Of a DNA stretch of 34,266 bases, positions 8,697 to 28,382 are shown one piece after another. Each line of letters starts with the position of its first letter. Within the stretch, counting starts at the first letter, position 1. The notes below the pieces were generated by a model. That model searched no databases and had not been told where the DNA came from. It worked only from the letters and a program-made list of their open reading frames with translations. Source of the DNA: an uncultured bacterium (lineage in GTDB: Bacteria > Actinomycetota > Actinomycetes > S36-B12); contig CAINMH010000037.1 in assembly GCA_903850745.1 (NCBI GenBank), positions 1 through 34,266 on the forward strand, given 5' to 3'. Position numbers and translations under genes: made by a program.

Positions 8697-8864
8697 CCCC
8701 TCGACTGTGATTGAGAGTTGAACCCTCCCATGAACCTCCTATGCTCCGGGTCCCGGCGGCCGGACCCTCGTATCGGAATGGGACAGCAGGGGGCACCAGC
8801 CCTACGAGAGAATGAGAGCAACTAATCCAGCGATCAATCCACTAGCGCGTCGAGGTGAAGATTT
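8697..8864. promoter_or_regulatory. Divergent promoter region between two acyl-CoA synthetase genes
   Basis: This 168-bp gap must contain promoters for the AMP-forming ligase (minus) and for the five-gene plus-strand unit starting at 8865. It holds the 17-bp operator-like palindrome at 8769-8785 and, next to it, an inverted repeat GGGTCC (8748-8753) / GGACCC (8762-8767) with an 8-nt spacer. A strong Shine-Dalgarno sequence, GAGGTG, lies at 8852-8857. I could not assign -35/-10 elements with confidence. Confidence 0.6.
8769..8785 (+). promoter_or_regulatory. Operator-like 17-bp imperfect palindrome, copy 1
   Basis: CGTATCGGAATGGGACA. It shares the right half TGGGACA and a GT dinucleotide at fixed distance (yGT-N11-ACA) with the sites at 16431, 24663 and 28365. 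It agrees with the copy at 24663 at 14 of 17 positions. It lies 79 nt before the NDP-forming acyl-CoA synthetase start and 72 nt from the ligase start. It is a proposed binding site for the AcoR-like regulator; this is inference. Confidence 0.5.
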
Positions 8865-10961
8865 ATGAGCGAAGCAGGGCTCCCCTTCCTGCATAACCCG
8901 TCCTCTGTCGCCATCATCGGAGCCTCTGACGATCCGGACAAGATCGGGGGGCGTCCAATCGCCTTCATGCGCAAGTACGGATTCTCCGGGGCAATTCTTC
9001 CGGTCAATCCAAGCCGGGCCACGATTCAGGGCCTACCCGCCTACCCCGATGTTGCCTCTTTACCCATCGTGCCCGAGGTGGCCATCATCGCCCTACCCGG
9101 CGAAGCTGCGGTGGCGGCTGTCGAGGCGTGTGCCGCCTTAGGCGTCAAGGGTGGCGTGGTCATGGCATCTGGCTTCGGCGAAACTGGACGCCCTGAGGAT
9201 CTGGCTCGTCAACACAATCTGGTGGCAATTGCACACGCGGGAGGAATGCGCCTCGTCGGACCAAACTCCCAAGGACTCGCCAACTTTGGCACCGGAACAA
9301 TCTTGAGTTTCTCGACCATGTTCGTTGAGCAAGAACCGCTAGATGGACCCATCGGCATTGTCAGTCAAAGTGGCGCAATGTGTTCGGTTCCTTACGGACT
9401 GCTTCGTCGCCGCGGTCTCGGCGTGCGCTATGTGCATGGCACCGGCAATGACGCTGATCTGGGAGTGGGAGACCTCGCGCTCGCTGTACTACAGGATCCG
9501 GATATCAGACTCCTCCTGCTGTACTTGGAGGACATTCGTGATCCGGCCTCCCTCCAAGCTGCCGCTGAGCAGGCGCTGGATCGAAACATCCCGATTGTGG
9601 CCATGATGGGTGGGCGAAGTGTTGATGGCCGACGAGCCGCTTCGTCGCATACCGGAGCCTTGGCCAACGAACAAAGAGTAGTGGATGCATTCTTCAAGCG
9701 AGTGGGCATCTGGCGCGCGAAGAGTATGAGCGGCATGGTCGACACCGCTGCCCTCTACCTCAAGGACTGGCACCCGCGTGGACGACGTCTTGCCATCGTG
9801 AGTAACTCGGGAGCGATCTGCGTTCTTGGGGCCGATGCGGCGGCAGACAATGGCTTGCAGTTGACGCAATTTACGCCGGAGACTTCACAGGCTCTGACGG
9901 AAATTCTGCCAACCTTCGCCACGAAGACGAATCCTGTCGACATCACTGCAGCATTACTCACCGATAGCAGTCTCTTTGGAAAGGTATTCCCCGTTCTCGC
10001 TGCAGACCCCGGAGTCGATGCGGCGCTCGTCGGTATTCCGGTCTCTGGAAAGGGATACGACTTCCCCCGCTTTGCAGCGGACACCGCCGAGTTCGCCGAG
10101 CGAGATCGTAAACCCGTGGTGGTGGCAATACCCCAAGAACCCGTCGCGCGTGCATTCCGCGAAAAGGGCCTCGTTGTCTTTGATGACGAGGCAACGGCTT
10201 TGGCTGCGTTAGGACAGTTTCTACACCATCGCGAACTCATGGAAGAGGTCCGTCGGCTTGGACCACTCCACAATTCCGTCAAGGGATCGCCCGTGGTGCG
10301 CAGTCTCAGTGAATCGGCAGCACTGGAATTCCTCAGCGACCGTGGCATCCCCGTTGCGCCCTCCACACTGTGTGCCACTTCCACTGCGGCCGTTGCCGCT
10401 TTCCACTCATACGGAGACATCCCGGTTGTAGTGAAGGGATGCCCCTCAGCGGCGACGCACAAGAGCGAGTTGGGCTTGGTACGCCTCGGGCTCTCGACGA
10501 GTGATGCTGTCGCATCAGCGGCTGATGACATGCTTGAGATAATGTCTCGCCTTGAGTTAGCAAACGACGGAGTGATCGTCGCACCGATGGTCCGAGGAGT
10601 GACGGAAGGAATGATTGGAGCACACGTCGACGCGGTGTTTGGTCCAATCGTTCTCGTCGGTGCTGGCGGCAAGTATGTGGAAGCCCTTGATGATGTCCAA
10701 GCGTTGATTCCGCCGTTCGACGAATCGGCTGCCTTAGCCGCAATCCAACGGCTTCATATTGCTCCGCTACTGAGTGGCGTACGAGGAGAGCCGCCCACAG
10801 ATGTGGAAGCTTGGGCTCGTGCCGCCGTCGCACTCGGCGAGTTGATGCTCGATAACCCAGCGATCCAGAGCGTAGATGTCAATCCACTCATGATCGGGGC
10901 TGCGTTCGGCGAGCCGTCATTTGGGGCTCTGGCCGTAGACGCAGTGGTGGAACTCGCCTAG
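8865..10961 (+). CDS. NDP-forming acyl-CoA synthetase (acetate-CoA ligase family)
   Basis: Single-chain acyl-CoA synthetase that couples thioester formation to ATP (or GTP) via an acyl phosphate and phosphohistidine. Domains in order: CoA-binding Rossmann domain (about 8-140, VAIIGASDDPDKIGG), succinyl-CoA-ligase-like domains (about 160-460) with the expected phosphohistidine H262 in SSHTGALA, and an ATP-grasp domain (about 480-690) with a second conserved histidine H532 in THKSELG. The 698 residues fit the fused alpha-beta form. The family includes acetate, pimelate and aromatic (ferulate, FerA-type) ligases, so the acid is not known. The start is fixed by GAGGTG 7 nt upstream. It heads a plus-strand group with ADH, ALDH, thiolase-like and DUF35 genes. 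A second CoA ligase of an unrelated family starts divergently from the same gap. Confidence 0.9.
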   Translation: MSEAGLPFLHNPSSVAIIGASDDPDKIGGRPIAFMRKYGFSGAILPVNPSRATIQGLPAYPDVASLPIVPEVAIIALPGEAAVAAVEACAALGVKGGVVMASGFGETGRPEDLARQHNLVAIAHAGGMRLVGPNSQGLANFGTGTILSFSTMFVEQEPLDGPIGIVSQSGAMCSVPYGLLRRRGLGVRYVHGTGNDADLGVGDLALAVLQDPDIRLLLLYLEDIRDPASLQAAAEQALDRNIPIVAMMGGRSVDGRRAASSHTGALANEQRVVDAFFKRVGIWRAKSMSGMVDTAALYLKDWHPRGRRLAIVSNSGAICVLGADAAADNGLQLTQFTPETSQALTEILPTFATKTNPVDITAALLTDSSLFGKVFPVLAADPGVDAALVGIPVSGKGYDFPRFAADTAEFAERDRKPVVVAIPQEPVARAFREKGLVVFDDEATALAALGQFLHHRELMEEVRRLGPLHNSVKGSPVVRSLSESAALEFLSDRGIPVAPSTLCATSTAAVAAFHSYGDIPVVVKGCPSAATHKSELGLVRLGLSTSDAVASAADDMLEIMSRLELANDGVIVAPMVRGVTEGMIGAHVDAVFGPIVLVGAGGKYVEALDDVQALIPPFDESAALAAIQRLHIAPLLSGVRGEPPTDVEAWARAAVALGELMLDNPAIQSVDVNPLMIGAAFGEPSFGALAVDAVVELA

Positions 10962-11063
10962 ATCGAGGATCCGGGTCCTTGCGCCTGTACCAAACTAGAA
11001 CATCGGTGCTCTCGGTCCCAATGGTCTGATCAAGAATCTGGCATCTACGTTGAGGAGAACACT

Positions 11064-12152
11064 GTGAAGGGTCGCCTCGTCGCGCTCTTGGGTCCGTCTC
11101 AAGTGGAGATTCAGGAATATGAATTGCCGGCCTTGCCACCTGGCGCAGCTCTTCTGAAGGTGCGCCGAGCAAACGTGTGTGGGTCAGATTTGCACATTTG
11201 GCACTTCCTCAGCGTTGCGTTTCGTGACGTTGTTATGGGTCATGAATTTGTGGCTGAGGTAGCAGAGCTTGGTGAAGGTGTAACGACAGATAGTGCTGGT
11301 CAACCTCTCTCAGTCGGTGACCGAGTGGCGGCGGTTTATTACCACACCTGCCTAAAGTGCGCTGCTTGCAGCCGAGGCGATTTTGAGATGTGCCTCAACG
11401 TGAACCGAAACTCAGCACTCGCGCCAGCCACTCCCCCACACTTCAACGGCGCCTTCGCCACGCACTACTACCTAAGCCCCGGGCAGTTCTTTTACAAGGT
11501 GCCCGACGAGGTTAGTGACGCGGCCGCGGCCGGCGCCAACTGCGGACTTGCGCAGATGGTCTTTGCAATCGACAAGCTCGGTGTGCGGTACGGCCAAAAC
11601 GTTGTCGTTCAGGGAGCTGGTGGACTAGGCCTCTACGCAGCAGCCGTTGCCAACCGCCAAGGTGCGCGAGTGATTGTCGTAGAAAAGGAGCCTGTGCGTA
11701 TCGCAGCCGCACTGCAGTTTGGCGCTCACGACATAGTGGACATCAACGAATTCCCCTCCGCCGAGGAACGAACGGCTCGCATCATGGAGTTGACTGGTGG
11801 CATCGGCGCTGACGTGGTTATTGAGCTCACCGGTCGCGCTTCGGCTTTCGCCGAGGCGGTTGATTTCTCTCGCCCCGGTGGCCACATCGCGTCAATCGGC
11901 AACCTCAATGTCGGCAAGGAATTCGAGATTAGTTTTGCTCCAGCACTCATCACACGTAAACAACTGCGCATCTTTGGAATCCTGCGCTATCACCCTTGGT
12001 ACCTCAAGCGCGCGTTAACATTTCTCGCCGAAAATGCTTCTCGTTTCCCATTCGAGGAACTCAGCGATCGAGTTTTTGCTTTGGATGACATCAATACGGC
12101 CTTAGAGTTGAGCGAGGCCCGCGCCGTATCCCGAGCCGCCATCATTCCTTGA
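11064..12152 (+). CDS. Zinc-dependent alcohol dehydrogenase (MDR family)
   Basis: Medium-chain NAD(P)-dependent alcohol dehydrogenase. Catalytic zinc ligands are C39, H60-E61 and probably C160. The structural zinc site has C96, C99, C102 and C110 (CLKCAACSRGDFEMC). The nucleotide-binding loop is GAGGLGL (184-190), followed by an acidic residue after the second strand (VEKEP), which favours NAD. It has 362 residues. The start is GTG at 11064, with GAGGAG at 11052-11057. The 102-bp gap after the acyl-CoA synthetase could contain an internal promoter, though co-transcription is also plausible. In a lactone/hydroxyacid pathway this would be the hydroxyacid-to-oxoacid step, feeding the ALDH encoded next; that role is inferred from order alone. 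Confidence 0.9.
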   Translation: MKGRLVALLGPSQVEIQEYELPALPPGAALLKVRRANVCGSDLHIWHFLSVAFRDVVMGHEFVAEVAELGEGVTTDSAGQPLSVGDRVAAVYYHTCLKCAACSRGDFEMCLNVNRNSALAPATPPHFNGAFATHYYLSPGQFFYKVPDEVSDAAAAGANCGLAQMVFAIDKLGVRYGQNVVVQGAGGLGLYAAAVANRQGARVIVVEKEPVRIAAALQFGAHDIVDINEFPSAEERTARIMELTGGIGADVVIELTGRASAFAEAVDFSRPGGHIASIGNLNVGKEFEISFAPALITRKQLRIFGILRYHPWYLKRALTFLAENASRFPFEELSDRVFALDDINTALELSEARAVSRAAIIP

Positions 12153-12187
12153 CCAAGGAACCACCAGAAGAACCCATTGGAGATCAC

Positions 12188-13636
12188 ATGAAGACGTACG
12201 GGAACTACATCGGTGGCGAGTGGCGCGAGCCAGGCACAAGCGGAACTTTCTCTGTGGTGAATCCAGCGACCGGCGAAACGGTGGCGGAAGTTGCCTCTGC
12301 TACTGCAGATGACATCCGTGACTCGATCGATCGAGCTGAGGCCGCGATGGCCGACTGGGCGGCCATGCCCGCGATTGAGCGCTCGCACATTCTGCGCCGC
12401 GCAGCTGCGATCATGATGGGCCGAGTCGACGAGCTTGCCGAGATCCTCACCCGGGAGCAGGGAAAGCCACTCGCGCAGGCTAAAGGTGAAATCGCATACG
12501 GATGCGGATTCATCGATTGGTTCGCCGAGGAGGGAAGACGCGCCTACGGCACCACTATTCCGGCGAGCGTTCCCGATAAGCGCATCGTTGTCGTCAAGCA
12601 GCCCATCGGAATCAGCGTCGCCATCACTCCGTGGAATTTCCCTTCCGTTCAGTTGCTCCGGAAGTTGGGCGCGGCGTTGGCTGCCGGGTGCCCCATGATT
12701 GCCAAGCCTGCCGAGCTCACGCCGCTGTCTTCGCTTGAGATAGCCCGAGCCTTCGACGAAGCTGGACTCCCCAAAGGAGTGTTCTCTGTCGTCTGCGCTG
12801 CAGAGCCCTACGAATTCACCGACATCATTATGGCGGATCCACGCGTACGAGCCGTCTCGTTTACGGGCTCCACAGAAGTCGGCAAACTACTCATGCGTCG
12901 TGGTGCAGATCACGTCAAGAAGGTCTCGTTGGAGCTTGGTGGACAAGCGCCAACGATCGTCTTTGAGGATGCAGACCTCGATGTCGTGGTTGCCGAGACC
13001 ATGGCTTCTAAGTTCCGCAACATGGGGCAGACATGTGTCTCGGTCAACCGAATCTACGTCCACGAATCCATCATTGATGAATTGGCAACACGCATGCAGT
13101 TGGCTATGAGCCAGCTCGAAGTCGGAGATGGGCTACATCCAAATAGTACGGTGGGCCCGCTCGTCGAGCCCGCTGCAGTCGAGAAGGTAGAGCGCCACGT
13201 AGCCGATGCAATCGCCAAGGGAGCACGGGTTCTCCAGGGCGGTAAGCGGGCCAGCGGCACTGATTTGAAATCCGACCAATTCTTCGAACCCACTCTCCTA
13301 GTGGGAGTCGATGAATCGATGCAGGTCATGCAGGAAGAGACTTTTGGTCCTGTCGCTCCGCTCGTCCCCTTCTCTGACGAGAAGGACGTGGTTGCCCGCG
13401 CAAATGGCACTCCATACGGCCTGTCTGCCTACCTCTTCACTCGCGATATCAACCGCGCGATCCGAGTCACCGAGGCGTTGGAATTCGGCACGATTGGCGT
13501 TAACGATTCAACCTTCTCCGCAGTGCAAGCACCCTTCGGCGGGTTCAAGGAAAGTGGACTCGGTCGCGAAGGTGGCTTCCTCGGTTTGGACGAATTCATG
13601 GAGTACAAGTTCATCTCCATCGGCAACGTTCGCTGA
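12188..13636 (+). CDS. NAD(P)-dependent aldehyde dehydrogenase (succinate-semialdehyde dehydrogenase-like)
   Basis: Oxidises an aldehyde to the carboxylic acid. Motifs: PWNFP (148-152), KPAELTP near 173-179, FTGST (225-229), general base E249 in LELGG, nucleophile C283 in GQTCVSVNR, and EETFGPVAP. The segment before PWNFP (VPDKRIVVVKQPIGISVAIT) and the region around the catalytic Cys resemble GabD-type semialdehyde dehydrogenases, so a terminal oxoacid substrate is reasonable. The frame is open to an in-frame TTG at 12149, but I start at ATG 12188: it has GGAG at 12179-12182 and gives the canonical N-terminus (482 residues). It lies 35 nt downstream of the alcohol dehydrogenase. Confidence 0.93.
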   Translation: MKTYGNYIGGEWREPGTSGTFSVVNPATGETVAEVASATADDIRDSIDRAEAAMADWAAMPAIERSHILRRAAAIMMGRVDELAEILTREQGKPLAQAKGEIAYGCGFIDWFAEEGRRAYGTTIPASVPDKRIVVVKQPIGISVAITPWNFPSVQLLRKLGAALAAGCPMIAKPAELTPLSSLEIARAFDEAGLPKGVFSVVCAAEPYEFTDIIMADPRVRAVSFTGSTEVGKLLMRRGADHVKKVSLELGGQAPTIVFEDADLDVVVAETMASKFRNMGQTCVSVNRIYVHESIIDELATRMQLAMSQLEVGDGLHPNSTVGPLVEPAAVEKVERHVADAIAKGARVLQGGKRASGTDLKSDQFFEPTLLVGVDESMQVMQEETFGPVAPLVPFSDEKDVVARANGTPYGLSAYLFTRDINRAIRVTEALEFGTIGVNDSTFSAVQAPFGGFKESGLGREGGFLGLDEFMEYKFISIGNVR

Positions 13637-13651
13637 AAGCGAATTGGTCTT

Positions 13652-14785
13652 ATGAAAGCCACAATCCTGGGAGCAGGAGAGTCTGATCGCACTCCCCAAC
13701 CGGGACGTACCGCGATTTCGATGGCTGTCGAATCCTCCCTCGCGGCCATCAGCGATGCCGGAATAGAAATCGGTGAGATCGACGGTGTCGTCACGGGTTA
13801 TTCGCTTGCGGAGCGACATCTCGACTTCAGCGCGGATTTGGCTGAGGCGCTTGGGGTCCGCCCGCTGTGGTCGCAGACAATTTCACGTAGTGGGGCAACG
13901 GGCTCGTCAGTTGTAGTCGATGCCGTTCTGGCAGTCATGGGCGGTGCGTGCACCACGGCCCTAGCCGTGTGGGCCGACAATAGAGTCTCGGGAAATCCAG
14001 AGGATATGACCGGAGCCCTCTCGGCTTCGTTGAACGCCTTCGAAGTAGCCAGTGGCCCACTCATCACTACGCAATACGCGCTTATTGCCCACTCCTACAT
14101 GTCGCGGACCGGCGCAACGAGTGAGGACCTTGCTTCGGTCGCAGTTCAATTTCGCAAGCACGCGTCGCTGAACGAGGCTGCAAAATACCGGAAGCTGATC
14201 ACGATTGATGATGTCCTTTCCTCGCCGATGGCTTCTTCTCCCCTGCACCGACTCGAATGCGCTCTCGTGACGGACTATGGCGGCGCTGTGGTCGTCAGCC
14301 GAGTAGATCGAGGCCGCCAAGGATCCGTCGACGTTCTTGGCTTCGGAGAGGCGTTGTCTCATTCTTCGATTCTGCGTAATCCCGATCTCTTCACTACCGG
14401 CAAGACCGCCGCGGGACAGTCCTCCCGCACGGCCTTTGAGATGGCGGGAGTCGGCCCAGCTGACCTCGACATGGCGCAGATCTACGACTGCTTCACGATT
14501 ACGGTCTTGATGCTGATGGAGGACTTTGGTCTTTGCGCGCGCGGCGAGGCGGGCGCGGCAGTTCGTGGCGGGATGTTGGACCGCGAAGGTGCACTTCCTA
14601 GCAACACCAATGGCGGCCTGCTTTCCTGCGGTTCCGGAGGCATTTTGCACGTGACCGAGGCTGTACGCCAGATGCGTGGTGTTGCTGGTTCACATCAACT
14701 TGCGTCCAGACCTGAACTTGCCTTGGTGCATGGCAACGGCGGCATCCTCGGCGCCCAAACCACTCTGATCTTGGGAAGGCGGTAG
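13652..14785 (+). CDS. Thiolase-like protein (SCP2-thiolase / Ltp2 type) lacking the thiolase nucleophile
   Basis: Thiolase-fold protein of 377 residues. In conventional thiolases a Cys sits in an NNCSTG-like loop near residue 90; the matching loop here is ISRSGATGSS (77-86), so the nucleophile position is Gly81. The C-terminal catalytic Cys region reads VHGNGG (359-364), also without Cys. A YDCF motif (Y278-F281) and SNTNGG (317-322) are typical of lipid-transfer-protein/SCP2-like thiolases. In M. tuberculosis Ltp2 such proteins pair with a DUF35 partner and cleave CoA thioesters by retro-aldol chemistry, using tyrosines. The next gene is exactly a DUF35 protein, overlapping by one base, so I predict a two-subunit complex acting as retro-aldolase or acyl transferase on a CoA thioester. 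The substrate is unknown. It lies 15 nt after the ALDH. Confidence 0.85.
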   Translation: MKATILGAGESDRTPQPGRTAISMAVESSLAAISDAGIEIGEIDGVVTGYSLAERHLDFSADLAEALGVRPLWSQTISRSGATGSSVVVDAVLAVMGGACTTALAVWADNRVSGNPEDMTGALSASLNAFEVASGPLITTQYALIAHSYMSRTGATSEDLASVAVQFRKHASLNEAAKYRKLITIDDVLSSPMASSPLHRLECALVTDYGGAVVVSRVDRGRQGSVDVLGFGEALSHSSILRNPDLFTTGKTAAGQSSRTAFEMAGVGPADLDMAQIYDCFTITVLMLMEDFGLCARGEAGAAVRGGMLDREGALPSNTNGGLLSCGSGGILHVTEAVRQMRGVAGSHQLASRPELALVHGNGGILGAQTTLILGRR

Positions 14786-15168
14786 TGGTGAATGATCCAG
14801 CTGAAGACCTCTGGAAGGCATGGGCTGACGGGCGGCTTTGTATCCAAAACTGCACGAAATGTGGGGCCTTACAACATCCACCAGGCCCGGTGTGCGGTCA
14901 TTGCCATGCCACGACACTTGATCTCATCGACATTGCGCCTACCGGAAAGATTGTTGCGTGGTCAACGGTGCACCGAGCACCTTCACCCACCTTTGCCGAC
15001 GAGGTGCCCTACACGATCGCAATCATTGCCATCGACCCCACTACATTTATTGAATCCCGCGTCTCATCTGCCGTGGTCGAAAGTGATCTGCGCGTCGATA
15101 TGTCTGTGCGCATCGAACTGGACGAAATAGGCGGCCGGGCGATGCCGGTGGTTGCCGGACTCGTCTGA
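14785..15168 (+). CDS. DUF35 OB-fold / rubredoxin-like zinc-ribbon partner of the thiolase
   Basis: Small (127-residue) DUF35 protein: an N-terminal helix (DPAEDLWKAWADGRL), a zinc ribbon with C23, C26, C37 and C40 (CTKC...CGHC), then an OB-fold (about 48-126). In characterised cases DUF35 proteins bind the pantetheine arm of CoA and channel substrate to a thiolase-fold partner. The start is GTG at 14785, overlapping the thiolase stop, or the adjoining GTG at 14788. GGGAAGG at 14773-14779 serves both, with slightly better spacing for 14788. The gene is convergent with the zinc-ribbon gene on the minus strand, with a single base between the stop codons. Confidence 0.9.
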   Translation: MVNDPAEDLWKAWADGRLCIQNCTKCGALQHPPGPVCGHCHATTLDLIDIAPTGKIVAWSTVHRAPSPTFADEVPYTIAIIAIDPTTFIESRVSSAVVESDLRVDMSVRIELDEIGGRAMPVVAGLV

Positions 15169-15169
15169 C

Positions 15170-15577
15170 TTAGGGAACCGGGTCGGGGGCCAAGGTCGAT
15201 CCCCCGGGGTGGTGGTTGTGCGAGATCGCATCCTCAGTGGTGAACGGCCGCTCTTTGACCTTAGTTTCCTGATACGCGATCTCTCGCTCAACGGCGCGAT
15301 TGTCTCCCTTGTATTTGGCGACCCACATACGCCCGGCGTCCTCTGACATATGGCACAGGCCCGGCACCATCGGATACTGGCTGCACATGGAAGGACGTGG
15401 CGCAGCTGAGGCGGCCTTGGGCGCTTGAGCCTTGCCGCCGAGGCGAGGGGCAGCAAACACCTTTCGCGCATCACCACCGCAGGCTTCACATGCCATAACT
15501 TCCGGCGCGGGACGGGCAGTCCAATGTTCTGCCATATGGCCGCAACTGTGACAACGGTAATCGTTGAGTATGTCCAT
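15170..15577 (-). CDS. FmdB-like zinc-ribbon protein
   Basis: 135-residue protein with an N-terminal zinc ribbon: C9-x2-C12 (YRCHSCGHMAEHW) and C30-x2-C33 (MACEACGGDARKVF), the FmdB/Zn-ribbon pattern. The following Ala/Pro linker is followed by a Cys- and His-containing tail with no domain I know. FmdB was first named as a putative regulator next to amidase genes; its function is not firmly established. It starts 6 nt after the stop of the lactonase-like gene, so the two are likely co-transcribed. A role as small regulatory or metal-binding partner of that pathway is only a guess. Confidence 0.75.
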   Translation of the reverse strand: MDILNDYRCHSCGHMAEHWTARPAPEVMACEACGGDARKVFAAPRLGGKAQAPKAASAAPRPSMCSQYPMVPGLCHMSEDAGRMWVAKYKGDNRAVEREIAYQETKVKERPFTTEDAISHNHHPGGSTLAPDPVP

Positions 15578-15583
15578 AGAGAT

Positions 15584-19500: not shown

Positions 19501-22049
19501 TATCGGGACGTAGCCCGACGTCGCTGGAACACGCCGCCACCACTGGAGTAGGCAAGCAGCGCGATGAGAGTCAAGCCGCCGATGAGGAGGTAGCTCACGG
19601 CATCAGACAGTTTGAGTGCGGGGACAATCGCCGTGGCAAGCGCGAGCATTAGAGCACCCACTAGGCAGCCGACAAATGACCCACGACCGCCGAGCAGGCT
19701 AGCGCCGCCGAGGACAGGGGCGGCAATGGCCAACAACGTGTAGCCGTTACCGACTGTCGCATCACCCGTACCTACCTGGCCCGCAACGACTATGCCAGCG
19801 ATTCCAGCAACGATCGCGGCCACGACGTACGACATCACTCGCATTCTGGCGACGTTCAGGCCGAGTCTGGTCGCAAAATTTGGCTCTAGACCGGCCGCAC
19901 GAATGAGCAGTCCATAACGGCTACGCCACAACACGAGGTCAGCGACTATAAGCAAAGGAATGATCACGAGGAACGGCGCCGGGATGAACCCAATCTTCTT
20001 CGTCATAAAGGTCATGAGTTCGGAGTTGATCGCACCTCCCGCAGTAGGTCGCAGTAGGAGCCCGAGACCCGAGACGATGCCAAAGGTCGCGATGGTGGCA
20101 ATAACTGGAGAGAGTTTTATGTATTGCGTGAGGACAGCATTCACCCCACCCACTATTAGACCGAGAACAATGACGATGCCTAGTGAAAAAAGTAGAAGTA
20201 GTATCGCGTTACCTTGAGTTATGAGGTACGACATCACCACGACGGTTAGACCTACTACAGCTCCGACGGAGACGTCGATGCCACCCAGCATCAAAACGGA
20301 GAACTGTGCGACCGCAAGCACGGCAATAGGAAGGGTCAGCAACAAGACGTTATAGAAACTCTGGGCACTACCGAATCTCGGCTGGATGAGAATCGCCGCT
20401 ATCCAGATGGCTGCGACGATGAGGGAGAGTCCGGCGAGCCGCACGAAGTCTTGGGCTCCACCGGAAAGACGCTTACGACGCGCGCCGTCCACCGCCACCT
20501 TGGAATCATCTTTGGCACCTGTGGAATCCGCGTGAGTTGCTACAGAGAAGCTCCCGACGATGGTTTCTTCCGTCGCTCCGATCCCCGGCAACTCTGCAAC
20601 AACACGCCCCCGTGACATCACGACAATTCGGTCTGCCATCCCGGCTAACTCCGAGGCGTCGGAAGATCCAATAACGACACCGATCCCACCATCCGCAGCG
20701 GAGCGCAACATGCGGTAGATGTCCATCCGGGATCGCACGTCGACACCCTGAGTGGGCTCTTCGATCAGCATCACCTGTGGGTCCGTGGCGAGCGCCCTAC
20801 TTAGAGCCACCTTCTGCTGGTTGCCACCGGAAAGCGACGTGATCGGGTGAACGGGACTTCCCACTTTGATACCGAATTCATCGATCTCGGATTCGATCGA
20901 GTCTTTCTCCTTGCGTGGATTAATCACGCCTGCCGTTGCGAAAGTCTTCAGGATTCCCACGGTGAGGTTTTCCTTGATACTGAGAGACTGGAAGAGGGAT
21001 TCCTTACGGCGATCACCACTGAGGAACAGAACTCCATTGCGTACCGAGTCGCCATAAGACTTCAGGGACTTCCCACGTGTTTCGAGGCTCCCCTGAACGC
21101 CATTAACGGCAGCAAGGCCTCTCAGCAGTTGGCGCTGGCCATTGCCATCCGCCCCGGCGATTCCGACAATTTCACCAGAGCGAACCGTCAATGACACAGG
21201 TCCGAAGCCAGCGCCCTGCAACTCCTGCGCCACGAGTAGCGGCTCAGCATCCACATTCACAGCAGAACGTTCTGGATACTCCACGTCTACTGCCGCGCCC
21301 GCCATGATTTCCACGAGCCCGACATAGTCCGTCTCAGAAGCTAGCATCGTTCCGCGCATGACGCCGTCGCGAAGGACTGAGATGCGGTGTGCAACACGGA
21401 ATACCTCGGAGAGACGGTGCGTAACAAAGAGCACTGAGGCGCCGGATTTGCCGACCTGGGTGACTAGATCTAGGACCCGATCAACACCTGCCGCATCGAG
21501 CGCCGAGGTTGCTTCGTCGAGAATAAGTAGTTTGGGCTGCGCAGCTATTGCGCGCACGATCTCAATAAGCTGGCGATCTCCAGGCGCAATTGACGCAGTC
21601 CTAGCATCAGCCGGGATAGAGCCCAGCCCGTACTGAGCAAGGGTCTCGGCCGTCCACTTGGACATGTCGCGATAGTGCGGACGATGCTGCGCGGGAGTGC
21701 CGATAAAGAAGTTCTGAGCGACGGACAAGCCCGGAATAAGGGAACCGTCCTGGAATACCGTGAGCACTCCGGCGCGCTGAGAATCGCGTGGCGACTTTGT
21801 ATCGAGGGCCTGCCCGGAAACTTCTATGTCACCAGCATCCGGCTTCACGGTGCCGCTCACGACTCCGACAAAGGTGGACTTGCCGGAACCATTCTCGCCA
21901 ACCAGCGCATGAATTTCGCCTGGGGCCAGTGTCAAACTCGCGTTCTGAAGTGCGCGCACGACGCCATACGTCTTGGAGAGGCCACTCGTGCTCAACAGCA
22001 CCTGGCCCGCCATAGCGGTGTCGCGATCAACGCTCACGTGGGTTCCCAT
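19500..22049 (-). CDS. Fused ribose-type ABC importer subunit: two ATPase domains plus permease
   Basis: A single chain of about 849 residues joins the RbsA-like tandem ATPases to an RbsC-like permease; these are normally separate proteins of about 500 and 320 residues. First ATPase: Walker A GENGSGKST (51-59), degenerate signature APGDRQ (about 155-160), Walker B LLILDEAT (174-181). Second ATPase: degenerate Walker A GADGNGQRQ (299-307), normal signature LSGGNQQK (406-413), Walker B VMLIEEPT (426-433). This asymmetry is usual for RbsA/XylG. A hydrophilic linker (about 500-535) leads to the permease with GGIDVSVGA and several helices. The frame is open to 22295, but that extension overlaps the binding-protein gene and looks non-native. 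I chose ATG 22049; GTG 22040 and ATG 22013 are alternatives. Confidence 0.88.
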   Translation of the reverse strand: MGTHVSVDRDTAMAGQVLLSTSGLSKTYGVVRALQNASLTLAPGEIHALVGENGSGKSTFVGVVSGTVKPDAGDIEVSGQALDTKSPRDSQRAGVLTVFQDGSLIPGLSVAQNFFIGTPAQHRPHYRDMSKWTAETLAQYGLGSIPADARTASIAPGDRQLIEIVRAIAAQPKLLILDEATSALDAAGVDRVLDLVTQVGKSGASVLFVTHRLSEVFRVAHRISVLRDGVMRGTMLASETDYVGLVEIMAGAAVDVEYPERSAVNVDAEPLLVAQELQGAGFGPVSLTVRSGEIVGIAGADGNGQRQLLRGLAAVNGVQGSLETRGKSLKSYGDSVRNGVLFLSGDRRKESLFQSLSIKENLTVGILKTFATAGVINPRKEKDSIESEIDEFGIKVGSPVHPITSLSGGNQQKVALSRALATDPQVMLIEEPTQGVDVRSRMDIYRMLRSAADGGIGVVIGSSDASELAGMADRIVVMSRGRVVAELPGIGATEETIVGSFSVATHADSTGAKDDSKVAVDGARRKRLSGGAQDFVRLAGLSLIVAAIWIAAILIQPRFGSAQSFYNVLLLTLPIAVLAVAQFSVLMLGGIDVSVGAVVGLTVVVMSYLITQGNAILLLLFSLGIVIVLGLIVGGVNAVLTQYIKLSPVIATIATFGIVSGLGLLLRPTAGGAINSELMTFMTKKIGFIPAPFLVIIPLLIVADLVLWRSRYGLLIRAAGLEPNFATRLGLNVARMRVMSYVVAAIVAGIAGIVVAGQVGTGDATVGNGYTLLAIAAPVLGGASLLGGRGSFVGCLVGALMLALATAIVPALKLSDAVSYLLIGGLTLIALLAYSSGGGVFQRRRATSR

Positions 22050-22066
22050 CCTTGACACTTGAGGGT

Positions 22067-22100
22067 GTCTGGTGGCCGGCCTCACGACCGGCCACCAGAC
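22067..22100 (-). terminator. Strong intercistronic hairpin after the binding-protein gene
   Basis: GTCTGGTGGCCGG (22067-22079) and CCGGCCACCAGAC (22088-22100) form a perfect 13-bp GC-rich stem with an 8-nt loop, starting 13 nt after the binding-protein stop codon and ending 17 nt before the ABC fusion start. No U-tract follows, so I read it as a partial terminator or mRNA stabiliser that raises binding-protein expression over the transporter, as known for other importer operons. A weaker competing stem, GACAC/GTGTC (22054-22058 / 22065-22069), shares its edge. Confidence 0.7.
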
Positions 22101-22113
22101 GTACTTCTCGGTA

Positions 22114-23448
22114 CTACTTAGCGGCCAGCATCTGGTTGACCAACTCGTCCGGGATCGTTGTAAGACCCGGGTAGTCAGCCGGCTTGTCGGCCTTGTAATC
22201 AGCCGCAGTCGCCTCAATGAATGGCTGCGGGTAGATCGACAGTGCAGGAATCTCGGTGCCACCAATGATGGAATCCATGATGTTGGACACGGCAACGCGA
22301 GCTGACCAGGTCAGTGAGTTGGTGTCGATCAACTTGAATGCCTTGTCGGTGCCCTGACGTGCTGACCACTCCTTGAACAGGTCATTGTTCGAGGTCCAGG
22401 TGATGAAGTCAGGAATCTTCTTCCCAGCCTGGTCGTAGGCCTTCACGATCTGCGTCATCGGATCTGCGTAGTCGTACATGATGATGTTGACATCGTTGCC
22501 ACTCGCAAGAAGAGCGGTGGATGCCTCGAATGCACCCTGAAGGGTCCAGTTCGTGTCAGCCTTGAAGACAACCTTGATGTCTGGAGCCTTTTCGGCGAGG
22601 GTCTCCTCTGCGCACTTGTTCCATGCAGCGCCCTGAGGGTTGCCTGGTGTGCCGTTGAAGAAGGCGATATTGCCGGAAGTTCCCAGAATCTCAATGGCCT
22701 TATCCGCCATTGCCTTGCCGTTGTTGCACACATCGCTCGTGACCTGAGTCGCGATTGCATCCGTGGGCGTTTCGGGCGAAGGACCGACGAAGATGCCAAC
22801 CTTGGCACCTGCATCTTGAGCTGACTTGAATGCCGGAGCAAGCGCCGGTCCGAAGTCGTTGTAACCAATGATGACGGTGGCGCCATCAGCAGAGAGCTGA
22901 CGAACACCGGCCTGCATCTGGGCGAGGTCGTACTCCGGCATGACCGAAATGATGCGGCCAACCTCGGGGTACGTCAGCGCCTGGATGATGGCTTCCATGC
23001 GAGCGAACTTGCGCCAGGTGTTGAGCTCCGGCGAGATGTAGCCAACGACCTGATCGCCACCACCTGGGATGGTGCAATCGGCGGTGGACCAGCACTCATA
23101 GGCGAGTGCTGTCTGCTCAGGCGTCAACGGCACTGCTGCACGAGTCAAAGCAGCCTGGATTTCAGGCGGAAGACTTGCTGCATCAACAGTGTCGGTGTTG
23201 AGGGCGATATTGACCTCTGCCTGAAGATCCCCACTCGGTGCTGCCGACGTGGTGGGTGCCGGTGCTGCCGACGTTGTAGGCGCCGGTGCTGCCGACGTTG
23301 TAGGCGCCGACGACGAGGACGGGGTGCTTGAACCGCCGCCACAGGCGGCGAGCAAGACCGCAGCTGAAATGCCCGCAGTCGCCACGACAAGATTCTTGAC
23401 CGTGAGACCACGAGGCGTTCTGCGCCGCGCAGTGGTGGAACTCTCCAT
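22114..23448 (-). CDS. Sugar-type ABC transporter substrate-binding lipoprotein
   Basis: Periplasmic-binding-protein family, ribose/galactose (CUT2) type, 444 residues. The N-terminus MESSTTARRRTPRGLTVKNL, then a hydrophobic segment and lipobox LLAAC with C36, mark a lipoprotein anchored outside the membrane. A low-complexity linker of APTTSA repeats follows, encoded by three 24-bp tandem copies. The ligand-binding domain begins near residue 120 and contains stretches typical of the family (VIIGYNDFGPALAPAFKSAQDAGAKVGIFVG; SGNDVNIIMYDYADPM). The frame is open to 23595, but AGGGAAGGA next to 23454 gives the best spacing (about 6 nt) to ATG 23448, so I start there. It lies 13 nt after the permease gene. 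The ligand is not identifiable by eye; the family binds sugars and polyols, but members also take other small molecules. Confidence 0.9.
   Translation of the reverse strand: MESSTTARRRTPRGLTVKNLVVATAGISAAVLLAACGGGSSTPSSSSAPTTSAAPAPTTSAAPAPTTSAAPSGDLQAEVNIALNTDTVDAASLPPEIQAALTRAAVPLTPEQTALAYECWSTADCTIPGGGDQVVGYISPELNTWRKFARMEAIIQALTYPEVGRIISVMPEYDLAQMQAGVRQLSADGATVIIGYNDFGPALAPAFKSAQDAGAKVGIFVGPSPETPTDAIATQVTSDVCNNGKAMADKAIEILGTSGNIAFFNGTPGNPQGAAWNKCAEETLAEKAPDIKVVFKADTNWTLQGAFEASTALLASGNDVNIIMYDYADPMTQIVKAYDQAGKKIPDFITWTSNNDLFKEWSARQGTDKAFKLIDTNSLTWSARVAVSNIMDSIIGGTEIPALSIYPQPFIEATAADYKADKPADYPGLTTIPDELVNQMLAAK
23237..23308 (-). repeat. Three 24-bp tandem repeats encoding the lipoprotein linker
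   Basis: The units 23237-23260, 23261-23284 and 23285-23308 repeat the plus-strand sequence GGTGCTGCCGACGT(T/G)GT(A/G)GG(C/T)GCC. The last two copies are identical and the first differs at three bases. They encode an 8-residue Ala/Pro/Thr/Ser unit between the lipid anchor and the binding domain. Copy number may vary between strains. Confidence 0.9.
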
Positions 23449-23461
23449 TCGCATTCCTTCC

Positions 23462-24481
23462 CTAGTGGACAGACCCTTGAAGTAGGGCCTCATTCCCTCC
23501 TGCATTGCGGCGACTACGTAGTGACCGCAAGACCTTTTTGTCTCGCAAGAGGAAAACCATGGTGAGTCCGAGGGCCAGAACCAAGCCCTGGACAAGATCG
23601 GGCGCGCCGCCCGTCAAACCGGCGACCTGAAGATTCAAGGTCAGCAGAGATACAAAGAGCGCACCGCACACTGTGGCAACAAAACTAACTCGCCCACCGG
23701 TAAGAACAGCTCCGCCGAGCACGACAGCCACAATGGGCGCCAACAGATAGGGCGCCCCAATTGTGAGGTCAGGCGTACGCAAGAGTCCAGAGAGCAAGAT
23801 GCCGCCGACGCCGTACAGCACTGCAGCGAGCACATAGGCGAGGATGCGATAGAACCGGGCCTTCAAGCCCACGAGGGTGCCCGCAGCGACGGAAGCGCTG
23901 CTTGCCACAAGACGACGACCAGAGACCGTCATCCACGTGACAAACGTTGCAAACCCGGCAAGCACAAAACTCGCGATCAAAATGAAACTGATTCCGGCAA
24001 CGTTATTGCCGCTGAATTCGACCAACAGCGGGGGCACACTGCTTACATTGAGAATCTGCCCGCGATAGAGACGCGCAAAACCAATCGCCAACATTCCCAC
24101 CGCGAGCGTGACAACAAGTGAGTTGAGTCCAAAGATCTCCACCAAGATTCCGTTGGTGAGACCCATGAGGATTACGGCGATCAAAGACACGATGATGGCC
24201 TGGGCCAGCATGCTGTCCTGTCCGTCCGGGAATTTCAACATGATGATGCCGACGACGGTGATGGCGGATGGGACACTCAGGTCGATCCCGCCGGTACCAA
24301 TCACGAGTGCTTGACCTGCGGCCGCGAGAACCATGATGCCCACAAGCGGCGTGAAGGCAGAGAGAATGCCCTGCCCGAAGATGCTGCCAGAAGTTTGCAG
24401 TCCAGCCAGAGCAAGGAGCAGCACAACCCCGATCGCAATGACCGTAAGTGGTGTCACAAACCCTCGTGCTGGTCGACGCAC
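23462..24481 (-). CDS. Ribose-type ABC transporter permease
   Basis: RbsC-like integral membrane protein of 339 residues with about eight to ten hydrophobic segments and the family motif GTGGIDLSVPS (about 62-72), corresponding to GGIDLSVG in RbsC. It is a second, separate permease in addition to the permease domain of the ABC fusion protein, so the importer probably has two different membrane subunits rather than the RbsC homodimer. It is the first gene of the minus-strand unit permease - binding protein - ABC fusion - GldA-like dehydrogenase. The start is GTG at 24481, with AAAGGTG a few nt upstream. The basic, Gln/Asn-containing tail after the last helix is cytoplasmic. Confidence 0.9.
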   Translation of the reverse strand: MRRPARGFVTPLTVIAIGVVLLLALAGLQTSGSIFGQGILSAFTPLVGIMVLAAAGQALVIGTGGIDLSVPSAITVVGIIMLKFPDGQDSMLAQAIIVSLIAVILMGLTNGILVEIFGLNSLVVTLAVGMLAIGFARLYRGQILNVSSVPPLLVEFSGNNVAGISFILIASFVLAGFATFVTWMTVSGRRLVASSASVAAGTLVGLKARFYRILAYVLAAVLYGVGGILLSGLLRTPDLTIGAPYLLAPIVAVVLGGAVLTGGRVSFVATVCGALFVSLLTLNLQVAGLTGGAPDLVQGLVLALGLTMVFLLRDKKVLRSLRSRRNAGGNEALLQGSVH

Positions 24482-24529: not shown

Positions 24530-24565
24530 ACAGGGGCACCTGTAGAAGATGTCTCATTGTGAGAC
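24530..24565. promoter_or_regulatory. Two inverted repeats upstream of the importer operon
   Basis: GTCTCA-TTG-TGAGAC (24551-24565) is a perfect 15-bp palindrome with a 3-nt centre. Next to it, ACAGG-GGCA-CCTGT (24530-24543) is a 5-bp inverted repeat. Both lie 48-84 nt before the permease start, where an operator would be expected. They do not resemble the 17-bp TGGGACA site in the same gap. A local transcription factor not encoded here could bind them. Confidence 0.4.
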
Positions 24566-24662
24566 GTGGATCACTTGACTTTGATCCTCCTCCTAGGGTG
24601 GCCGAAACCACCCGCTCCGATGCTCAATCGTTATGGGCTGCGCGGAGTCCCCGGTCTGTTTG

Positions 24663-24679
24663 CGTATCTATATGGGACA
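24663..24679 (+). promoter_or_regulatory. Operator-like 17-bp imperfect palindrome, copy 3
   Basis: CGTATCTATATGGGACA, 14 of 17 bases identical to the copy at 8769. It lies 53 nt before the LLM oxidoreductase start and 181 nt from the permease start, inside the 251-bp divergent gap 24482-24732. Apart from these sites the gap shows nothing gene-like. Confidence 0.5.
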
Positions 24680-24732
24680 TCCATGATCCGCAGGCATGGT
24701 GTGGCATTCGTGGTAACCCTAGGGAGGTCTTC

Positions 24733-25599
24733 ATGCAGGTAGGCGTATACGCATTTGCAACCCCGGACGGGCTTCAGCCCGCGGAACTTGCGCGAGAAGT
24801 CGAAGCCAGAGGGCTCGCTGCACTCATGTTCCCTGAGCATTCGCATATACCTGTAGCCCGTGCCACGAGTTATCCAGATGTTTATGGAGGCGGAGAACTC
24901 CCCGGGTTCTACATGCGGACCTATGACCCCTTCGTGAGCTCCACGTTGGCGGCTTCGGCAACCACTCGACTGCGCGTTGGCCCCGGCATTTGCTTGCTCG
25001 CCTTGCGTGAGCCTGTGCACACGGCTAAGGAGGTTGCTTCCATCAGTCACCTTTCTGGCGGTCGGTTCAATTTCGGCGTGGGCTTTGGCTGGAACGCGGA
25101 TGAGTTCGACAACTTAGGTGTCCCCTTTAAGGGTCGGCACAAGTTGGTGCGCGAAAAGGTCATGCTGATGAAGCGCCTTTGGGAAGACGACGTGGCCAGT
25201 TTCGATGGCGAATTGGTGTCATTGAAGGCGAGTTGGGCTTGGCCAAAGCCGATCGACGGCCCTCCCATCTTCCTTGGCGGAAACGGTCCAATGACAATGA
25301 AGCACGCCGCTGAATGGGCAGACGTGTGGTACCCGACGCCTCCAGGAGAAGACCCCTTGCTGGAGAAGTCCGTGGCCGCCTTCAAGATTCTCGTGGAAGA
25401 AGCTGGACGTGACCCGCAAGCAGTCAAGATCGGCTGCGCACCCGGCGATGTCACCCGAAGTGATTTGGACGCCTACGCGGCAAACGGTCTGTCCTACGTG
25501 AATGTCGGCATGGTGACCACGTCACGCGACGACGACCTACGGCGACTAGACGACATCGCTGAGCGGGCCGTCGAATACATTGCCGGCTCTCAGAAGTAA
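24733..25599 (+). CDS. Luciferase-like (LLM class), probably F420-dependent oxidoreductase
   Basis: TIM-barrel flavin/F420 oxidoreductase of the luciferase-like superfamily, 288 residues. Landmarks: N-terminal GVYAFAT, MFPEHSHIP (32-40), SGGRFNFGVGFGWNADEFDNLGVPFKGR (108-135) and PIFLGGNGP. The SGGR-F-x-x-GVGFGWN stretch is characteristic of the actinobacterial F420-linked subfamily; cofactor use is inferred from family, not seen. The frame is open to 24448, but AGGGAGG (24721-24727) five nt before ATG 24733 fixes the start. Its 3' end overlaps the end of the regulator gene (minus) by 10 bp. It could reduce or oxidise a ketone or alcohol of the pathway; the substrate is unknown. Confidence 0.88.
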   Translation: MQVGVYAFATPDGLQPAELAREVEARGLAALMFPEHSHIPVARATSYPDVYGGGELPGFYMRTYDPFVSSTLAASATTRLRVGPGICLLALREPVHTAKEVASISHLSGGRFNFGVGFGWNADEFDNLGVPFKGRHKLVREKVMLMKRLWEDDVASFDGELVSLKASWAWPKPIDGPPIFLGGNGPMTMKHAAEWADVWYPTPPGEDPLLEKSVAAFKILVEEAGRDPQAVKIGCAPGDVTRSDLDAYAANGLSYVNVGMVTTSRDDDLRRLDDIAERAVEYIAGSQK

Positions 25600-27395
25600 T
25601 CCGCGTCAGGATCAATTCGATACGAACTGAGCTTGCGATAGAGGGTAGATCGCGAGACCCCCACGATGTTTGCCGCAATGACTTTGTTGCCATTTGACTG
25701 ACGCAGTGCATCCAAGATCGCCTTAAGTTCCACGTGCTCGAGGGCCGTTAACTGCCGACGAGTCGCGCAAGCCTGAATTTCGGACGGCAGATGCCCCGCC
25801 TGAATCTCCCCATTAGCGTCAGCTGCCACAGATTTGAGAAGCGCCCGCAACTGGAGGATGTTGCCTGGCCACGGTGCACGGACCAAGGATCGGAGTGCCC
25901 CTGAGGACAAGCGCAGTTTCCTTGATTGGGCATCGACAAGGATGACCTGAGCAATCGCTGGAATGTCCTCACTGCGCTCTCGGAGTGCCGAAATGCGAAT
26001 CATTGGACCAAAGACCGCTGCGAGACGTTCATGCTCCGCGGTTGCAGGTGCTCCTACTGCCGAAGTCAAAGTGCCCACTACTACGCACTTCGATGTCTTG
26101 ACAGTGTCAGCGAGGCGCGAGGCAAGAGCCATCGCCACGCCTGGTGACATCGCTTCGACATGACGAATCAAAACCGCGTCGGCCCCTGCCGTCGCAGCGT
26201 CGTACTCCTTCATCGCGGAACCAGCGGCTTCCCATGCTTGAGTGGCCGCGTCAATCACGCGGATCGTTCCATCGGGGAATGCTTCGGAAAGCGCGCCCTG
26301 CGCGAGGGCCGTTTTTCCGACGCCTACCTCACCAGTCACGAGCGCCGAACTTCCATTGGCTATGGCTCGACGCATTGCCGAGACGACTTCGCGCCACGCG
26401 GCGCTGGACCCTACGAGACCGGGCAAATCCGCAGAACGTACATTCGCTGTAGATTTCGCTGGTTTCGAATGCGTAGATGACGACACCACGGGCGCACTGA
26501 AATCCACTAACGCACCCACCATCCGTCCCTGGCTTTCGATCGGACGACAAACGATGGGAACGACCTGCCCATCTTCGAGTAGAAGTTCGGTCTTCGCTTC
26601 CGATCTCCCGCCGAGAGCCTCTCGCACCGTCTCCCAGATGACCACCTCTTGAAGTCCGCCCAGCAAATGGGTAACGCGTGGGCCAGCGATGAAAATCTGT
26701 TGTCCCACGCCAGCGACGCGACGGCCATTGCCTCTGCTTGCTTCTAGGTAGGCGTCAAGAACGAGTCTTTCGGCCACGGATCCTTGTTCGAGCAGGCGGT
26801 GCTCTACGTCAGCGGCGACGCTACGCATCAACGGAGTCAGCAGTGAACTCGCGGACTCCGCCCGGCACGACATGGTGATGACACCTTCAAGGCGGCGGGT
26901 AATCGGGTGATGAACTGGAACCCCGACGCACGCAAACGGGACCATGGACTCCATGAGGTGCTCGTGGCCGACGATTTGAATAGGTCGACCAGTCTCCGCA
27001 ACCGTGCCAATACCGTTTGTGCCCACAACCTCTTCGGATCCGCTGAATCCAGCATCAGATCTGAGGCTGTCCAACATGGGTAGCAGGTTCGGATCAGAGA
27101 CCCACCTGCGAAGGATGCGCGCGTGGCGGTCAGCGAGTAATACGCCGGCACCCAAACCGGTCAATTGTCCGGCAAGTGCCTCCAGGACGGGATCGGCTGC
27201 CGCACACAAGGCACTGTCCGTATCGAGCTCGCCGACGTAGGGAAGTTCGGGAAGCCCCACCTGCGCTCCGCTGAGCAGGGACCGCCGCCAGGAACTGAGC
27301 ACCTCGGGGCGCAAAATGGCTTCCCACGGCTCAGGAATAACACCCTCAGAGAGAACGATCTCCCGCACTTGGCTCACGGACATGGTCAGCGACAC
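25590..27395 (-). CDS. AcoR-like GAF/AAA+/Fis transcriptional regulator without sigma-54 contact motif
   Basis: 601-residue activator-type regulator. An N-terminal helical segment (SSWRRSLLSG) leads to a GAF sensor domain (about 60-205; FSGSEEVVGTNGIGT, the signature of acetoin/diol-sensing AcoR/DhaR-like proteins). A second segment (about 225-300) ends in GALVDFS. A degenerate AAA+ domain (about 320-540) has Walker A GEVGVGKTA (355-363), the Walker B position read as AVLIRHVEAM (no DE), LRERSEDIPAIA and PWPGNILQLR. The C-terminal Fis-type helix-turn-helix is at about 556-591 (NKVIAANIVGVSRSTLYRKL). The GAFTGA loop needed to touch sigma-54 is missing, as known for several actinobacterial members such as MimR-type proteins. 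The start is GTG 27395, with AAGGGG 6 nt upstream. It is the only regulator in the block and the best candidate to bind the four 17-bp sites. Confidence 0.9.
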   Translation of the reverse strand: MSLTMSVSQVREIVLSEGVIPEPWEAILRPEVLSSWRRSLLSGAQVGLPELPYVGELDTDSALCAAADPVLEALAGQLTGLGAGVLLADRHARILRRWVSDPNLLPMLDSLRSDAGFSGSEEVVGTNGIGTVAETGRPIQIVGHEHLMESMVPFACVGVPVHHPITRRLEGVITMSCRAESASSLLTPLMRSVAADVEHRLLEQGSVAERLVLDAYLEASRGNGRRVAGVGQQIFIAGPRVTHLLGGLQEVVIWETVREALGGRSEAKTELLLEDGQVVPIVCRPIESQGRMVGALVDFSAPVVSSSTHSKPAKSTANVRSADLPGLVGSSAAWREVVSAMRRAIANGSSALVTGEVGVGKTALAQGALSEAFPDGTIRVIDAATQAWEAAGSAMKEYDAATAGADAVLIRHVEAMSPGVAMALASRLADTVKTSKCVVVGTLTSAVGAPATAEHERLAAVFGPMIRISALRERSEDIPAIAQVILVDAQSRKLRLSSGALRSLVRAPWPGNILQLRALLKSVAADANGEIQAGHLPSEIQACATRRQLTALEHVELKAILDALRQSNGNKVIAANIVGVSRSTLYRKLSSYRIDPDADYF

Positions 27396-27511: not shown

Positions 27512-28291
27512 CTAGTCGCGGGTCGACCGGGGCCGAAAGTCGCCATCAATAGTCACTCCGCCATCCGCCTTAAGCAAGATCCCCGTCACGAAGGAGGCGT
27601 CACTTGATGCAAGGAAGGACGCGACATTTGCGATCTCATCAGGGCTGCCCAGCCGCCTAAGGGGGGTCCGATTAAGAATCTCCTGCTCGTCCAAGACTCC
27701 CTCGCCAAAGCCTGATCGCATGAGATCTGTGTCGATGTATCCAGGCGCAATGGCATTGACTCGGATGCCAAAGGATCCCCACTCAGCGGCCAAGGTACGC
27801 GTGAGGCCGAGCATGCCGCTTTTTGCCGTGCTGTAGGCCAGGCGCAGCGGCATACCCAGCGTCGAACCCACTGATCCAAGGTTGATGATGGATGGGTTCT
27901 CGCCGGCCCGAAGCAGATCAAAGGCGGCCCTCGAGCAACGCATTGTGCCGCCCAGATTGACGTCAAGTTCGCGCATCCACTGGTCTGTGCTCAACTCCGT
28001 TGATGGAGTGCGCTTGAGAATTCCGGCGTTGTTCACGAGTACGTCGAGACGTCCGTAGGCGGCGTGAACCGCCGCCATGAGGCCCTGAACGCTAGCGTCG
28101 GAGGTCACTTCCAGCTCCAGACCCAAAGCGACGTCTTCTGAGCCCAGCGCCTGAGCCAGATCTGTCGCCCCTGCCGCATTGACGTCGGCTACCACGACGC
28201 GCAGCCCATCTCGATTCAGCCGGCGGGCGATCGAGGCGCCCAGCCCTTGGGCTCCCCCAGTGACGACCGCAACTCGACCCACTAACGCCAT
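27512..28291 (-). CDS. Short-chain dehydrogenase/reductase (second copy)
   Basis: Classical SDR of 259 residues, probably oxidising an alicyclic or secondary alcohol to the ketone used by the divergent Baeyer-Villiger monooxygenase. Motifs: TGGAQGLG (11-18), NNAG (87-90), S140, Y153 and K157 (Y-S-T-A-K), and NAIAPGYIDTDL. Asp36 after the second strand (VVVADVN) favours NAD over NADP. The frame is open to 28405, but homology begins at MALVGRVAVVTGG, so I start at ATG 28291. No good Shine-Dalgarno sequence is seen, so the message may be leaderless. It lies upstream of the regulator on the same strand, with a 116-bp gap. It is clearly a different gene from the SDR at 6385, not a recent duplicate. 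Confidence 0.9.
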   Translation of the reverse strand: MALVGRVAVVTGGAQGLGASIARRLNRDGLRVVVADVNAAGATDLAQALGSEDVALGLELEVTSDASVQGLMAAVHAAYGRLDVLVNNAGILKRTPSTELSTDQWMRELDVNLGGTMRCSRAAFDLLRAGENPSIINLGSVGSTLGMPLRLAYSTAKSGMLGLTRTLAAEWGSFGIRVNAIAPGYIDTDLMRSGFGEGVLDEQEILNRTPLRRLGSPDEIANVASFLASSDASFVTGILLKADGGVTIDGDFRPRSTRD

Positions 28292-28363
28292 CCCGCAAGG
28301 TTGTCTGAGGTCCCGGGGCCGCGGGTGGCTCAGAATCGGACGCACGTGTCCCCCAACCGTGCC

Positions 28364-28382
28364 GTGTCCAGAGTTGGGACAC
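28364..28382 (+). promoter_or_regulatory. Operator-like palindrome, copy 4 (most symmetrical)
   Basis: GTGTCC-N7-GGACAC is a perfect 6-bp inverted repeat. Its inner 17 bases (28365-28381, TGTCCAGAGTTGGGACA) align with the copies at 8769, 16431 and 24663. A further half-site, GTGTCCCCCAAC, begins at 28346 and can also pair with GTTGGGACAC. The site lies in the 183-bp SDR/BVMO divergent gap, 93 nt before the BVMO start and 73 nt from the SDR start. Confidence 0.55.

Follow-up and report, generated by a model that had tools for sequence, protein, structure and literature searches.

Divergent gene pairs that share one palindromic sequence invite the question of whether they form a single regulon and, if so, which protein reads the shared site. 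The question is raised here by a stretch of 34,266 nucleotides from an uncultured actinobacterium (GTDB lineage S36-B12; contig CAINMH010000037.1), which is referred to below as the window. It carries a block of catabolic genes that includes a gene for an AcoR/DhaR-like regulator (25590–27395, minus strand). The original prediction, made by eye, assigned four 17 bp sites in the block to this regulator. In the present analysis, comparison of genomes indicates that the sites are very probably operators of the local regulator, through which it would activate the whole block by way of a sigma-70-type holoenzyme. The proposed regulon is thus supported computationally, but in a refined form that comprises six sites, one of which may belong to another subtype, and in which sigma-54 is not involved. 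A by-eye observation thereby becomes a well supported regulon in which a single regulator would govern genes for import, oxidation and CoA-ester formation, in bacteria reached here only through draft assemblies.

Shared sites in the block and its relatives

The four sites of the original prediction were all confirmed on the plus strand, in one orientation and in all four internal divergent gaps. Site A (CGTATCGGAATGGGACA, 8769–8785) lies between the genes for an AMP-binding ligase and an ATP-grasp CoA ligase, site B (CGTGCCAGTTTGGGACA, 16431–16447) between those for a lactonase and a transketolase, site C (CGTATCTATATGGGACA, 24663–24679) in the gap between an importer permease gene (perm2) and a gene for an LLM-class oxidoreductase, which it faces, and site D (TGTCCAGAGTTGGGACA, 28365–28381) between the genes for a short-chain dehydrogenase (SDR2) and a Baeyer–Villiger-type flavin monooxygenase (BVMO). 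The plus-strand genes start at 8865, 16507, 24733 and 28475, and the stated distances of 53–93 nt to these starts are likewise correct. Two further conserved sites had been overlooked, both on the minus strand: site E (TGTTCTAGTTTGGTACA, 10986–11002) stands between the ATP-grasp ligase gene and a zinc-dependent alcohol dehydrogenase (Zn-ADH) gene, ahead of the unit for alcohol dehydrogenase, aldehyde dehydrogenase (ALDH) and thiolase, and site F (CGTCTCACAATGAGACA, 24550–24566) shares the perm2/LLM gap with site C and faces the ABC importer. Site F scored 16.5 with a matrix that had not been trained on it, compared with about 10.5 or less for unrelated sequence.

The sites are imperfect palindromes: the right half, TGGGACA, is strong, and the left half is weak in sites A and C. 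Site D is nearly symmetrical, and site E is more symmetrical in relatives than in the window. The gaps with sites A, B and D measure about 130–184 nt and hold one site each in the window, and the perm2/LLM gap, the longest at about 250 nt, holds two, one for each direction; this arrangement would fit shared use of a single site by both promoters in the short gaps.

The pattern YGT-N7-TGGGACA has exactly four matches in the window against a mean of 0.13 expected from shuffles, a figure that is post hoc on its own since the pattern was taken from the four sites. Other copies of TGGGACA or TGTCCCA in the window number six (3547, 5554, 17143, 24269, 26701 and 28510) rather than about five, and, as had been noted, each of them lacks a YGT at the matching distance. 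In the whole genome the bare pattern is neither rare nor enriched (11 matches against nine for a reversed control), and all seven matches outside the block fall within open reading frames of at least 100 amino acids. Because the pattern is not enriched over its reversed control, this count was not taken as evidence. The result differed for the full motif: searches with weight models gave no match to it in this genome outside the block, so that one outcome named beforehand as damaging to the prediction did not occur. When a matrix built only from the four sites of the original prediction was applied to 147 kb of sequence from relatives, 15 matches reached 14 bits or more. Every one of them fell in a gap of the block, whereas column-permuted matrices gave 0–3 matches.

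A sequence-only covariance model was also run over 12 genomes, with the best 150 candidates per genome being scored. In this genome it matched only sites A, B, C and F. In the relative G109, the model matched a contig that was absent from training and that proved to be the ligase/ligase gap of the block there; most of the other matches came from sequences of the training set. For six relatives without a detected regulator (G028, G029, G030, G046, G040 and G106), the model gave zero or one match each, one in total, which lies inside an open reading frame.

Four genomes of this bacterial family encode orthologs of the regulator with 63–65% identity. A search of the genome contigs with the regulator returned one true ortholog, from the same genome as G071, and otherwise distant NtrC-type proteins. 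G071, G079 and G080 have almost the entire block with its gene order kept, and every orthologous divergent gap found there has a site in the same orientation; for G079, the part read yielded no SDR2/BVMO gap. In anchored comparisons of the window with G071 and G079, the GT core is 100% identical and the TGGGACA half 95–97%, against 34–40% for the flanks; the site alignments included G080 as well. Site A is kept in G071, G079, G080, G031 and G109, site B in the first four of these, sites E and F in the first three and site D in G071 and G080; site C is also conserved in relatives. The motif is thus kept in orthologous islands that keep the regulator, where its loss would have spoken against the prediction.

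A rearranged version of the block extends this comparison. A plasmid of Cnuibacter physcomitrellae (NZ_CP020716.1:175000–214750) carries most of the block at 38–63% protein identity, in another gene order and pairing, together with a regulator that is 35% identical to that of the window. The four best matches to TGTCCCA-N3-TGGGACA in these 39.8 kb all lie at promoters of the block, namely in the BVMO/thiolase (CGTCGCAAGATGGGACA), ADH/lactonase (TGACTCACAATGGGACA) and regulator/permease (TGTCCTGATTTGGCACA) divergent gaps and a short distance ahead of the LLM gene (TGTCCTATTCCGGGACG). The sites go with the genes and not with one given gap. C. physcomitrellae is a cultured strain with the same module and may provide a culturable model.

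The local regulator and competing explanations

In Pfam searches the regulator shows GAF, AAA_16 (below cut-off), AAA_lid_14 and HTH_8 domains, which places it in the AcoR/DhaR-like family as defined by a GAF domain, an AAA+ domain and a C-terminal Fis-type helix–turn–helix (HTH). Its best NCBIfam match is DhaR (NF008485) at 129.3 bits, well short of the curated cut-off of 551 bits, and its GAF region matches the solved DhaR chain 4lrx. No GAFTGA motif was found in the regulator or its four orthologs, and the regulator did not match Sigma54_activat (PF00158); one ortholog matches the weaker Sigma54_activ_2 domain, which is consistent with descent. Sigma-54 (PF04552) was found in none of eight genomes, this one and seven others, in a search with positive controls. 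Sigma-54 promoters were therefore rejected: a regulator that lacks GAFTGA, in a genome that lacks sigma-54, cannot act as a classical enhancer-binding protein, and activation at sigma-70-type promoters is likely.

The sites, their conservation, their co-occurrence with the regulator and the absence of sigma-54 are direct observations, from which we infer the following course of events. The GAF domain would sense a compound of the pathway as inducer, and a dimer of the C-terminal Fis-type HTH would bind the YGT-N11-ACA sites, with TGTCNCA-N3-TGNGACA as their ideal form. The regulator would then turn on, rather than repress, the genes for the importer, the CoA ligases, the ADH/ALDH/thiolase unit, the lactonase, the transketolase, the LLM-class oxidoreductase, SDR and BVMO. 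Where a divergent gap is short, a single site between both promoters would probably serve both, and in the perm2/LLM gap each direction would have its own. An ordinary sigma-70-type holoenzyme is proposed because the regulator has no sigma-54 contact loop and the genome no sigma-54.

Several observations weigh against this reading. The left halves of sites A and C are weak, as described above, and no clear site was found in the window ahead of the regulator gene or at the promoter of the first short-chain dehydrogenase gene (SDR1). A scan of the gaps with the sigma-70 consensus, which is uninformative for this kind of organism, recognized no promoter. In G031, fragments of the block with sites were found and no regulator, on contigs of about 4 kb. 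Many of the distant loci discussed below have no clear palindrome. Finally, site E is similar to TGTTCC-N5-GGAACA, a palindrome that stands at the promoter of a second AcoR-like regulator of this genome, C138. This gene is divergent from an aldehyde dehydrogenase gene, and the gap between them carries TGTTCCGATCCGGAACA (L118:1335–1351, G000:C138), which differs from the motif of the block. Site E may thus be of a different subtype, outside the main set in this genome, and C138 may contribute there.

The resemblance of site E to the C138 palindrome also lends some substance to the possibility that the block is one regulon bound by another transcription factor encoded elsewhere, such as this AcoR-like paralogue. 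However, no ortholog of C138 was found in G071, G079, G080 or G109, all of which keep the sites, so that C138 was rejected as the general binder; in addition, palindromes of the same type stand beside distant AcoR-like regulators in other families, and the genes of the block showed no further regulator. Control by a factor from elsewhere is accordingly improbable. That the local regulator binds the sites as a repressor released by an inducer, or in both roles, is unlikely but deserves somewhat more attention: with promoter elements unrecognized, an operator overlapping the promoters would fit the distances of 53–93 nt. Characterized members of the same architecture (AcoR and EtgR) are nevertheless activators, and a single site at 53–93 nt from both start codons of a divergent pair would better suit an activator bound upstream.

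The sites might also be a core promoter element, for instance the −35 box of an alternative sigma factor, with TGGGACA giving the direction of the promoter. Sites A–D all point to the plus-strand gene and their TGGGACA half is invariant, which would fit such an element; yet they are dyads with a conserved GT at the left edge, site D comes close to full symmetry and homologous sites at distant loci reach it, while the presence of the motif follows the regulator rather than a sigma factor and the spacing to the start codons varies. We consider this explanation highly improbable. Chance recurrence of a short G+C-rich word, with which the genome-wide count of the bare pattern would agree, is already refuted by the conservation in diverged gaps, the blind recovery in G109 and the rearranged Cnuibacter block. 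Activation by the local AcoR/DhaR-like regulator hence remains the preferred reading.

Distant AcoR-like regulators and known systems

The comparison was extended to 41 loci of AcoR-like regulators (about 24–42% identical, with 1.5 kb flanks where the contig allows), which were collected without regard to the motif. The symmetrized motif TGTCCCA-N3-TGGGACA matched at 14 of 14 positions in five loci and at 13 in two, compared with none of 410 shuffles. Regulators of only about 30% identity, spread over the Actinomycetes, have such near-perfect palindromes next to them. The generalized form YGTCNCA-N3-TGNGACR occurs in ten of the 41 loci against 0.1 expected and a looser form in 18 against 1.5, both forms having been picked after these first results were seen. 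In ten whole genomes the generalized palindrome has only one to three places each; several of these genomes were picked for a known site near the regulator, so that only the rarity of other matches counts. Related sites also precede regulator and BVMO-like genes on Rhodococcus plasmids, for example TGTCCGAAGCTGGGACA and TGTCCTATTCTGGGACA on pRHL2 of strain RHA1.

On balance we favour, with some reserve, YGTCNCA-N3-TGNGACR as a general operator of a large and mostly uncharacterized family of actinobacterial AcoR-like activators whose coupling to sigma-54 has been lost, in which the inner base pairs would separate paralogues (TGTCCCA, TGTCTCA, TGTCGCA and TGTTCC types). A family-wide operator is thereby suggested, and similar sites are predicted for many uncharacterized members. 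If this is true, catabolic regulons could be read from genomes by one motif. Actinobacterial AcoR-like regulators often flank genes for BVMO, SDR and other monooxygenases, and their DNA targets appear to be little described in the searchable literature. A limited literature search, which covered few subscription papers, found no description of TGTCNCA-N3-TGNGACA or YGTCNCA-N3-TGNGACR. Work on MimR-type regulators could contain the TGTCNCA-N3-TGNGACA motif.

TGT-N11-ACA sites of activators with a Fis-type HTH are already known, and many such activators have sites of the TGT-N10–12-ACA form (PMC6615313); the present regulon and the family operator appear to be new. The AcoR of Bacillus, a sigma-54 (SigL)-dependent activator of acetoin catabolism with an operator of about 30 bp, resembles the regulator of the block in its GAF-type sensor, AAA+ domain, Fis-type HTH, inducible catabolic operon and palindromic operator, which precedes the start codon (PMC10018347); in contrast, the block regulator lacks GAFTGA, its genome lacks sigma-54 and its predicted operator is 17 bp. 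DhaR, which regulates the dihydroxyacetone kinase operon of Escherichia coli, has the GAF, AAA+ and Fis HTH domains in the same order, but it controls dihydroxyacetone kinase genes, none of which was seen in this block. Enhancer-binding proteins of the FhlA/NifA type in Clostridiales use a Fis HTH and TGT-N10–12-ACA inverted repeats, although they act with sigma-54 from sites mostly 100–250 bp upstream of the promoter (PMC6615313), whereas here there is no sigma-54 and the sites lie 53–93 nt from start codons. In Rhodococcus, Mycobacterium and Gordonia, Fis-family regulators stand beside the propane monooxygenase genes prmABCD, and a palindrome that covers the −35 region of the Rhodococcus prmA promoter has been proposed as the site of such a regulator (PMC4428276). 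These too are actinobacterial Fis-HTH regulators beside a catabolic monooxygenase unit, but the enzymes differ and a single promoter is concerned. TpdR of Rhodococcus TMP1 was rejected as a parallel, as it is of the LuxR type.

Genes of the block and minor observations

SDR1 (6376–7119, plus) is a conserved member of the block. Predicted targets of site A are the AMP-binding acyl-CoA ligase (7128–8696, minus) and the ATP-grasp CoA ligase of the NDP-forming type (8865–10961, plus), and that of site E is the unit for Zn-ADH, ALDH, thiolase and an OB-fold partner (11064–15168, plus). Site B is predicted to serve a lactonase-like metallohydrolase with a zinc-ribbon protein (15170–16375, minus; lactonase start inferred from conservation) and the N and C subunits of a split transketolase (16507–18358, plus). 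For site F the predicted target comprises the permease, binding protein and fused ATPase-permease of a sugar-type importer and a glycerol-dehydrogenase-like Fe-ADH (18391–24481, minus), and for site C the F420-dependent LLM-class oxidoreductase (24733–25599, plus). The AAA+ domain of the regulator is degenerate. Its gene closely follows SDR2 (27512–28291, minus), which lies 116 nt upstream on the same strand and is a predicted target of site D, perhaps with the regulator; the other target of D would be BVMO (28475–30070, plus). The family names of SDR, BVMO, lactonase, ADH/ALDH, CoA ligases and thiolase suggest that a cyclic alcohol or ketone is oxidized via a lactone to CoA esters.

The block stands between ftsE and prfB (window 5508–31201). 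Of 18 relatives examined, 15 have these two genes no more than about 1.5 kb apart, so that the block looks inserted between them, and the version on the Cnuibacter plasmid supports its mobility.

Between sites F and C, four genomes share AATCGTTA (24626–24633) without any change. Two relatives (G079:C19:185760 and G080:C101:11429) carry an additional tandem site, CGTCCGGAAATGGCACA, which begins 22 or 18 bp past the start of site B; G080 also has a further BVMO gene, inserted ahead of the transketolase. Immediately ahead of the regulator gene, G071 (C39:27830) and G109 (C316:3277) have weak sites of a kind not seen in the window, and autoregulation is possible there. A paralogous second block, which includes genes for a related ABC importer and an AcoR-like protein (28–30% identity), is present at G071:C39:40420–47854, as well as in G079:C3 and G080:C182; the G071 copy has TGTCCTGAGATGAGACA about 240 nt upstream of its own regulator gene.

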